A DNA stretch of 64,000 nucleotides from contig NGFH01000009.1 in assembly GCA_002215675.1 (NCBI GenBank), positions 1 to 64,000 of the forward strand, written 5' to 3'. Shown piece after piece: positions 1,287 to 3,224 of the stretch. Within the stretch, counting starts at the first letter, position 1, and each line of letters begins with the position of its first letter. A program made the translations under genes and the position numbers. The stretch comes from Bacteroidetes bacterium 2013_40CM_41_45. GTDB taxonomy: Bacteria > Bacteroidota > Bacteroidia > AKYH767-A > 2013-40CM-41-45. The notes beneath the pieces are model-generated. The model did not search any database, was not told the origin of the DNA, and saw only the letters and a program-made list of their open reading frames with translations.

Positions 1287-1314
1287 GGGATTCCGTCAGT
1301 GTGTTTTAGAGATG

Positions 1315-1352
1315 GAAGGGCTCTCACAAAAAGAGAGCCCTTCTTTTTTTTC
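1315..1352 (+). terminator. Rho-independent terminator of the T9SS protein gene
   Basis: Perfect 11-bp stem (GAAGGGCTCTC with GAGAGCCCTTC), 7-base A-rich loop and a run of eight or nine T, starting 28 bases after the stop codon. Confidence 0.92.
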
Positions 1353-1423
1353 TATCCCAATTAAATTCAATGTTTTTTATTATCTGAAATTTTTAACCTG
1401 TTATCGAAAATAATTATTGAACC

Positions 1424-1465
1424 ATCGAAAATGAAAATCACGCGGGAAAGGAAAGTATAATTTTC
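1424..1465 (+). promoter_or_regulatory. Candidate ATCGAAAA-N26-TAATTTTC promoter of the kaiB operon
   Basis: Octamer ATCGAAAA at 1424-1431, then 26 bases, then TAATTTTC at 1458-1465, a one-base variant of the Bacteroidota -7 box TAnnTTTG. Another ATCGAAAA lies at 1403-1410 without a box at that spacing. The start site would be near 1472, leaving a leader of about 100 nt before the kaiB start. The same layout recurs across the window. Confidence 0.6.
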
Positions 1466-1569
1466 ACGGCTTGACAAATTTCAGCAAATCTATTTGACAT
1501 TAATACTTGGATAGGGAGAAAGCAATCTTGTCACGCAATTTTTTTCATTGATACCATAGTTATCTTTTT

Positions 1570-1950
1570 ATGAAAGTAAAAACCAGCGCAGTATTCCCAA
1601 AAACACCTTCCGGCATAGATGGCCTGGATGAAATAACAGGCATGAAAAAGAACCCGCAGAAATTTGTTGTTGAAGGTAAGCTCGTTTTGCAGCTTTATGT
1701 GTCAGGCATGTCTCCCCGGTCTATGGATGCTATTGATAAAATAAAACATTTATGCGATGAGCATTTGCATGGCGCATTCGATTTGGAAATAATAGACCTG
1801 TACAAAAACCCTGAAGCGGCCAGCGAGCAGCAGATTATTTTCAGCCCATCGCTTATTAAGAGATTGCCGCTACCGAAAAAAACACTGGTAGGAAATTTTT
1901 CGGATACTGAGAAAGTGATTAAAGGATTAGGAATTATAATTGAAGAATAA
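1570..1950 (+). CDS. kaiB: KaiB-family protein fused to a KaiC N-terminal stub
   Basis: Residues 25-126 form a complete KaiB (thioredoxin-like) domain of about the normal length: LQLYVSGMSPRS, then LEIIDLYKNPE, SPSLIKRLPLP, and a C-terminal SDTEKVIKGLGI. Residues 10-24 (PKTPSGIDGLDEITG) instead match the conserved start of KaiC, just before its Walker A domain, and are joined directly to the Met that would start kaiB (nt 1642). No kaiC exists upstream. In other Bacteroidota kaiC, kaiB and a PAS kinase form one operon. I infer a deletion that removed almost all of kaiC and left kaiB behind kaiC's start signals. Translation from 1642 instead of 1570 is possible. The kinase gene starts 2 nt after the stop. 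Confidence 0.88.
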   Translation: MKVKTSAVFPKTPSGIDGLDEITGMKKNPQKFVVEGKLVLQLYVSGMSPRSMDAIDKIKHLCDEHLHGAFDLEIIDLYKNPEAASEQQIIFSPSLIKRLPLPKKTLVGNFSDTEKVIKGLGIIIEE

Positions 1951-1952
1951 CC

Positions 1953-3224
1953 GTGGAAACAGACGAAAATCTTGTATCGAAAATCCAGGAGCTGGAGAAC
2001 CGTCTTAATGAATCGGAGCAACTGATAGAAGCAATAAAAGCAGGCGAGGTAGATGCTTTTGCTTTGACAAAAAACAACCAGTCCGAAATTTTTACGCTTC
2101 AAAGCGGTGATTATGCTTACCGCATGCTGGTCGAAAATTTTGGTGAAGGAGCGTTGAACTTATCCGAAGAGGGGTTGATTGTTTACACGAACAAATATTT
2201 CCACGAATTGTTGGCGTTGCCTTATGAAAAAGTAATAGGACATTCTATTTATCTTTTTATACATCCTGGTTCCAAAGATGATTTCCTGGCGCTTTTCAGG
2301 AAAGGATTGGAAGGGCAGAGCAAAGGAGAAATAAATTTGTTTGTTAACGATAAAATAATTCCCGTGTATGTATCGCTTACTTCGTTATATCCAACGCTGC
2401 CTACAGTGGGAGTGATTATCACCGACCTTACAGAAAAGAAAAAACACGAGCAGCTCTTAGAGAAATATCAAACAGATTCAGAGGCAAAAAACCAGGAGCT
2501 TGCACAAAGCAATGCCGAGCTTGTTTCATTCTCATATATCGCCTCGCACGACTTGCAGGAACCTCTTCGTAAGATACAGACTTTTTCAGACCGCATACTC
2601 GATAAGGGGCATCACCAGCTTTCGCACGAATTGAAAGATTATTTTCATCGTATCATATCGGCAACGGGGCAGATGCAAAATCTTATTATAGCGCTGCTCG
2701 ATTATTCCAGGACAAATTCTTCTGAAATGATTTTTGAGGAGATAGACCTGGACAAGGCGGTTCAGAAAGTAAAGAATAACCTCTCTGAAATGCTTGAAGA
2801 AACACACGCTGTTATTGAAAACGCACCGCTTACGGTTTTACAAGTTGTTCCGCTTCAGTTTAAACAGCTTATTACAAATATTTGTTTGAATGCCATAAAA
2901 TACAGGAAGCCGGATGTTCTACCTGTTATTAAAATCAGCGGAGGTATAGCAGCTGCGAATGATTTGCGTGGCTTGAGCGCCAGACCGGGCAGGAGCTATT
3001 ATAAGCTAAGCATAGCAGACAACGGAATCGGTTTTGAGCAGGAGCACGCAGAAAAAATATTTGAATTGTTTCAAAGACTCCATGGCAAAAGTGAATACGA
3101 AGGAACAGGAATAGGACTCGCCATCTGCAAAAAAATAGTTCAGAATCATAAAGGATTTATCAGGGCAGAAAGCATGCCCGGTACCGGCTCAACGTTTACA
3201 ATTTATCTGCCGCTGAGGCACTAG
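1953..3224 (+). CDS. PAS sensor histidine kinase of the kaiB operon
   Basis: Soluble kinase of 423 residues. There is an N-terminal coiled coil (about 1-35) and a PAS domain (about 50-160). A second coiled coil leads into a HisKA domain with the phospho-accepting His199 in ASHDLQEPLRKI, followed by a HATPase_c domain (N box NICLNAIKYR; G1 DNGIGF; G2 GTGIGLAICKKIV; final GTGSTFTIYLP). No membrane segment, so it senses an internal signal. It starts with GTG two bases after kaiB, so it is probably translationally coupled. Kinases of this type accompany KaiB/KaiC in Bacteroidota, and SasA in cyanobacteria carries a KaiB-like sensor, so a KaiB-kinase interaction is a reasonable inference. No response regulator is adjacent; the NtrC-type regulator at 6.3 kb is the nearest. 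Confidence 0.93.
   Translation: METDENLVSKIQELENRLNESEQLIEAIKAGEVDAFALTKNNQSEIFTLQSGDYAYRMLVENFGEGALNLSEEGLIVYTNKYFHELLALPYEKVIGHSIYLFIHPGSKDDFLALFRKGLEGQSKGEINLFVNDKIIPVYVSLTSLYPTLPTVGVIITDLTEKKKHEQLLEKYQTDSEAKNQELAQSNAELVSFSYIASHDLQEPLRKIQTFSDRILDKGHHQLSHELKDYFHRIISATGQMQNLIIALLDYSRTNSSEMIFEEIDLDKAVQKVKNNLSEMLEETHAVIENAPLTVLQVVPLQFKQLITNICLNAIKYRKPDVLPVIKISGGIAAANDLRGLSARPGRSYYKLSIADNGIGFEQEHAEKIFELFQRLHGKSEYEGTGIGLAICKKIVQNHKGFIRAESMPGTGSTFTIYLPLRH

Follow-up and report, generated by a model that had tools for sequence, protein, structure and literature searches.

Every Kai timer is regarded as having KaiC at its core, and the usual view is that KaiB acts via KaiC. In the survey of Schmelling et al. 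(2017), which used a genome set filtered on KaiC, KaiB was found only where full-length KaiC was present, and the Bacteroidetes were described with only KaiB2/KaiC2-type systems (PMC5520375). A genome scan for close relatives of the KaiB treated here gave seven, all of them within operons of the order kaiC - kaiB1 - kaiB2 - kinase (L012-L018), and the same order is present in G732. The gene order that the first-pass annotation had suggested comparing at related loci is thus that of an intact kaiC - kaiB1 - kaiB2 - PAS histidine kinase operon.

The window analysed here is a stretch of 64,000 nucleotides from Bacteroidetes bacterium 2013_40CM_41_45, starting at base 1 of contig C2 in an assembly of 3.38 Mb, 11 contigs and 99.46% completeness. 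On its + strand, a 126-aa ORF at 1570..1950 begins with kaiC codons 1-24, which run in frame into a complete kaiB. The window and the Bacteroidota operon (L012-L018, L086) share the order and spacing of kaiB2 and the kinase, and the kaiC start region, but the window has lost the whole of kaiB1 and everything of kaiC past codon 24, and the start codons of kaiC are fused to kaiB2. We give a probability of about 65% to the reading that this is a decapitated kai operon, produced by a probably recent in-frame deletion, and we infer for it a kinase that most likely works without KaiC and a KaiB2 that is a passenger or a weak modulator.

Other described systems resemble the locus in part. The Rhodobacter sphaeroides KaiBC hourglass (PMC10076222) also has a KaiB-family protein, and the intact relatives of the window have a two-domain KaiC, in some cases with a long C-terminal tail; the window differs from the hourglass in being without KaiC, hence without a timer, and in encoding a kinase beside KaiB. 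As in SasA, a KaiB-fold module lies beside a histidine kinase, and the SasA N-terminal domain (1t4y) is among the structures matched by the model made for the window protein. However, whereas SasA is a single chain, here KaiB and the kinase are separate proteins, encoded by ORFs in different frames (1570-1950 and 1953-3224), the N terminus of the kinase is PAS and not KaiB, and there is no KaiC to bind. In structure, the moderate-confidence model of the window protein comes closest to the KaiB of Legionella pneumophila (4kun), a KaiB2-type protein that was crystallised in the thioredoxin-like state (PMC5520375, PMC10808063). Legionella keeps its KaiC, the autophosphorylation of which is cited in PMC6989803, whereas the window genome is without one.

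The identity of the leader is clear from its alignment with the KaiC N termini of L012-L018 and L028 and from a KaiC N-terminal HMM. Residues 1-24 of the fusion (MKVKTSAVFPKTPSGIDGLDEITG; 1570..1641, + strand) align without gaps to KaiC residues 1-24 of relatives such as L013 and L014, and the kaiC remnant stops immediately short of the CI-domain GG(L/F)P turn and Walker A motif. With an HMM made from nine KaiC N termini, the window being left out, and with 1,496 window frames as the target, the fusion ORF scored 41.8 bits (E 5.5e-12) and the runner-up frame 5.6 bits. The leader by itself scored 47.6 bits, against a top score of 14.6 bits among 20,000 shuffles, which rules out a chance resemblance to KaiC. 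The first-pass annotation was therefore right in recognising a KaiC N terminus ahead of the KaiB start methionine. It had also considered that the extension might be an ancestral feature of KaiB; this is contradicted by the relatives, whose KaiBs are without it, and in every relative examined the peptide begins a complete upstream kaiC.

The deletion junction lies at 1641..1642 on the + strand, where the operon order and spacing in relatives place kaiC codon 24 (GGC) directly against the ATG of kaiB2. Met25 of the fusion aligns with the start methionine of the second KaiB of relatives, at an about equal spacing to the first strand. The GGC at the junction could derive from kaiC codon 24 or from an intergenic ...GGC before kaiB2, as found in L015, so that the breakpoint can be placed only within a few bases, and the homology shared between the two breakpoints is at most about 3 bp (GGC). 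The equivalent interval from kaiC codon 24 to kaiB2 is 1,667-1,833 bp in relatives; by this comparison, about 1.7 kb is absent from the window, comprising kaiC from codon 25 to its end and all of kaiB1.

That kaiB1 went with kaiC is indicated by the tree position of the survivor. In a KaiB tree covering L012-L018, L086 and L101-L119, the first and second KaiBs of the Bacteroidota operons form two groups, KaiB1 being slowly evolving and KaiB2 much more variable, and this sequence grouping indicates that they are distinct types. The window protein falls among the second KaiBs, beside L012 and L086 and apart from all first KaiBs, and since close relatives have two, it was not the only KaiB of the ancestral operon. 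Thus, the proposal of the first-pass annotation, an in-frame joining of kaiC codon ~24 with the start codon of kaiB, stands as far as the joint is concerned but was incomplete, the loss of kaiB1 having been overlooked. The surviving gene is a complete kaiB2 (102 aa, 1642..1950, + strand), with 77% identity to the kaiB2 of L012.

Pfam KaiB (PF07689) matches residues 42-121 of the fusion at 69.9 bits (cut-off 27), and P93, P100 and P102, three prolines that are invariant across the family alignment, are present. The equivalog cut-off for circadian KaiB sensu stricto (NCBIfam TIGR02654) is not reached by the window protein (68.2 bits vs 145.3), and both KaiBs of the intact relative L013 are likewise under it. 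An AF2 model from 33 sequences (mean pLDDT 71.6) has the thioredoxin-like, fold-switched order, which is the state that AF2 is known to prefer for KaiB (PMC10808063), and in the same model the leader is of low confidence and without secondary structure. A model from the nine closest sequences (pLDDT 52) was too low in confidence to inform on the fold state. Besides the Legionella protein and the SasA N-terminal domain, the best PDB matches of the moderate-confidence model included KaiB in complex with KaiC.

No kaiC was found elsewhere in the source genome. Its PF06745 matches are RecA, DnaB and a protein of the primase/helicase type. Querying it with a Bacteroidota KaiC gave no match, whereas the same query detected KaiC, at E values of 1e-140 or lower, in 18 of the other 19 genomes with KaiB in the class sample. 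Relocation of kaiC is thereby ruled out for this assembly, and the two-domain KaiC ATPase that would mark a KaiBC timing system is absent from the source genome. This bears out the earlier description of an operon that has lost its ATPase and in which a PAS histidine kinase follows KaiB. A search of the same 99.46%-complete assembly for a second KaiB also found none.

An alternative is that the organism has kaiC and that the gene was skipped at the joint, as an assembly artefact or a minority variant. In favour of this, the contig end lies only 1.57 kb upstream of the ORF. Against this, homology of at most about 3 bp is too small to collapse an assembly graph, the joint is in frame and on a start codon, and kaiC and kaiB1 are found nowhere else in the assembly. 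We therefore regard an artefact as highly improbable and a single in-frame deletion in this genome as almost certainly real. The state is known from one genome of the genus, and fixation in the species is not implied.

On our reading, an ancestral kaiC - kaiB1 - kaiB2 - histidine kinase operon of the Bacteroidota type has lost ~1.7 kb through a single in-frame deletion, and what was the start codon of kaiC now directs a 126-aa protein made of a 24-residue, probably unstructured KaiC leader and a complete KaiB2. With KaiC gone, there would be neither an ATPase nor a phosphorylation timer, and timekeeping of the Kai kind would be beyond the locus. The kinase would most likely persist as an ordinary PAS-sensing kinase freed of KaiC control, with the KaiB2 fusion as a passenger or weak modulator. 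A natural deletion of this kind separates the parts of the system, since it removed KaiC and one KaiB and spared the second KaiB and the kinase.

The leader also provides an indication of when the deletion occurred. In leave-one-out models it scored 44-49 bits, whereas the real KaiC N termini tested all scored lower, at 28-43 bits. In simulations of neutral drift, a score of at least 41 bits was kept by at most 5.5% of sequences after 0.1 substitutions per site and by at most 0.5% after 0.2. The undecayed state of the leader thus points to a probably young deletion, one far more recent than the split from the relatives, unless the leader is constrained; this estimate assumes that an unconstrained leader drifts, and with a functional leader the deletion could be older. 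The synonymous divergence between the window and its relatives is mostly saturated, and dN/dS was set aside as a test of selection because saturated sites, together with a possibly recent deletion, make it uninformative on the period after the event.

Given the probable youth of the deletion, the fact that kaiB2 and the kinase are well preserved is weak evidence for their use afterwards, and the locus may be heading for loss. It may be that the whole operon is already useless and that kaiB2 and the kinase are merely free of lesions so far, in which case the locus simply documents, in an ordinary way, that a timer has been lost. The apparent youth of the leader suits such decay, as does the decay of Kai loci elsewhere: G558 is another decaying kai locus, with only a C-terminal fragment of kaiB (L087:3667-3822) and no KaiC, in a genus in which most sampled members have both. 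In addition, neither KaiB nor KaiC was found in any of the order's other 41 genomes. However, both frames (102 and 423 codons) are open, all the kinase motifs are kept and the joint is in frame. Simple decay is unlikely in our view, though it is the leading alternative to an operon with a working kinase. The position of the joint exactly at a start codon and in frame, with kaiB2 and the kinase whole, would also suit selection for their continued expression.

The kinase (423 aa, 1953..3224, + strand) is intact, with Pfam PAS, HisKA and HATPase_c matches, and its ORF begins 2 nt past the kaiB2 stop. Its phospho-acceptor region reads ASHDLQEPLRKI and the N and G boxes are retained. It shares 42-59% identity with the kinases of the L012-L018 operons and is orthologous to the kinase found in last place in the operon of relatives; kaiB2 and the adjoining PAS kinase of the Bacteroidota operon are therefore present, and kaiC and kaiB1 are missing apart from kaiC codons 1-24. 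On balance, the kinase probably still works without KaiC.

A different possibility is that KaiB2 and the kinase are a retained, KaiC-free module, in which KaiB2 or the fusion would bind the PAS kinase and set its activity, by analogy with the KaiB-like domain that SasA carries within one chain. Both proteins are complete and their tight spacing is kept, which speaks for such a module. Some operons carry just one of the two KaiBs, and this, with the greater variability of KaiB2, suggests that the two KaiBs may have different partners. The distribution of the kinase points the other way. Its N-terminal region (coil plus PAS) travels with the kai operon in relatives, and outside the window every examined kinase with this region sits in an operon with KaiC. 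In two genomes, G403 and G609, the region is accompanied by KaiC and KaiB1 and not by KaiB2, so KaiB2 is no universal need of the kinase, and in the ~245-nt gap at the kaiB2 position of these loci (L101, L102) no KaiB2 remnant was seen in three forward frames. In G070 it occurs with KaiC and a KaiB2-type protein only; neither KaiB is thus strictly required alongside the kinase.

The first-pass annotation had gone further and proposed that KaiB acts directly on the kinase. This proposal is unsupported here, since the undecayed leader suggests a deletion too recent for conservation to indicate retained function. We consider the KaiC-free module unlikely, and a real KaiC-independent role of KaiB2 on the kinase is similarly improbable.

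KaiB without a two-domain KaiC does occur elsewhere in the phylum. Among 25 further KaiB-bearing genomes of a phylum-wide sample that were checked for KaiC, three (G431, G564 and G737) have an intact KaiB and no two-domain KaiC; KaiC is missing too from G558 with its KaiB fragment, and in G593 just pieces were found, at contig ends. In G564 (L084:4109-4381) and G737 (L085:3849-4118), a KaiB of 90 aa is flanked on one side by a histidine kinase and on the other by a REC-PAS-kinase-REC hybrid, and an ATPase that resembles KaiC more distantly is encoded tens of kb away. In G431 (L083:3547-3834), a lone KaiB lies near transaldolase-like and ROK-kinase genes. The nineteenth genome of the class sample (G087, L029:4293-5084) has no KaiC, and its KaiB domain is attached on the C-terminal side of a response-regulator receiver domain. 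Thus, the earlier remark that a KaiC-free KaiB output system would be unusual was fair, but given the three other phylum genomes with intact KaiB, the state is rare rather than unique.

These loci resemble the window in having a KaiB-family gene in a genome without a two-domain KaiC. They differ from it in having a KaiB of another group and no KaiC leader, and in their arrangement, which is kinase-KaiB-hybrid kinase, lone KaiB or REC-KaiB. As independent KaiC-less KaiB loci, placed between kinases in G564 and G737 and fused to a receiver domain in G087, they lend something to the idea of a KaiC-free module. In its fullest form, this idea would have loss of the ATPase turn a timer into a plain sensor that uses KaiB, with G564 and G737 as an independent instance, and here it is slightly less probable still. 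The window and the G564 and G737 loci together make it testable whether KaiB acts on a kinase directly.

The operon itself was likely gained horizontally before the deletion, the alternative being repeated loss. Its distribution is scattered, close relatives coming from an Algoriphagus and from MAGs, one of them a Puia, while KaiB and KaiC are absent from the other 41 genomes of the order. One relative with the intact operon, L016, is the culturable Algoriphagus ratkowskyi. A flanking PAP2 gene has a counterpart in a single other member of the family, with 36% identity, and gave no syntenic empty site. The intergenic region upstream of the fusion (1287..1569, + strand), between the end of a type IX secretion ORF at 1286 and the kaiC start codon, would hold the former kaiC promoter. 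That upstream ORF (3-1286) carries a type IX secretion C-terminal sorting domain and lies at the contig edge, the contig end falling inside it.
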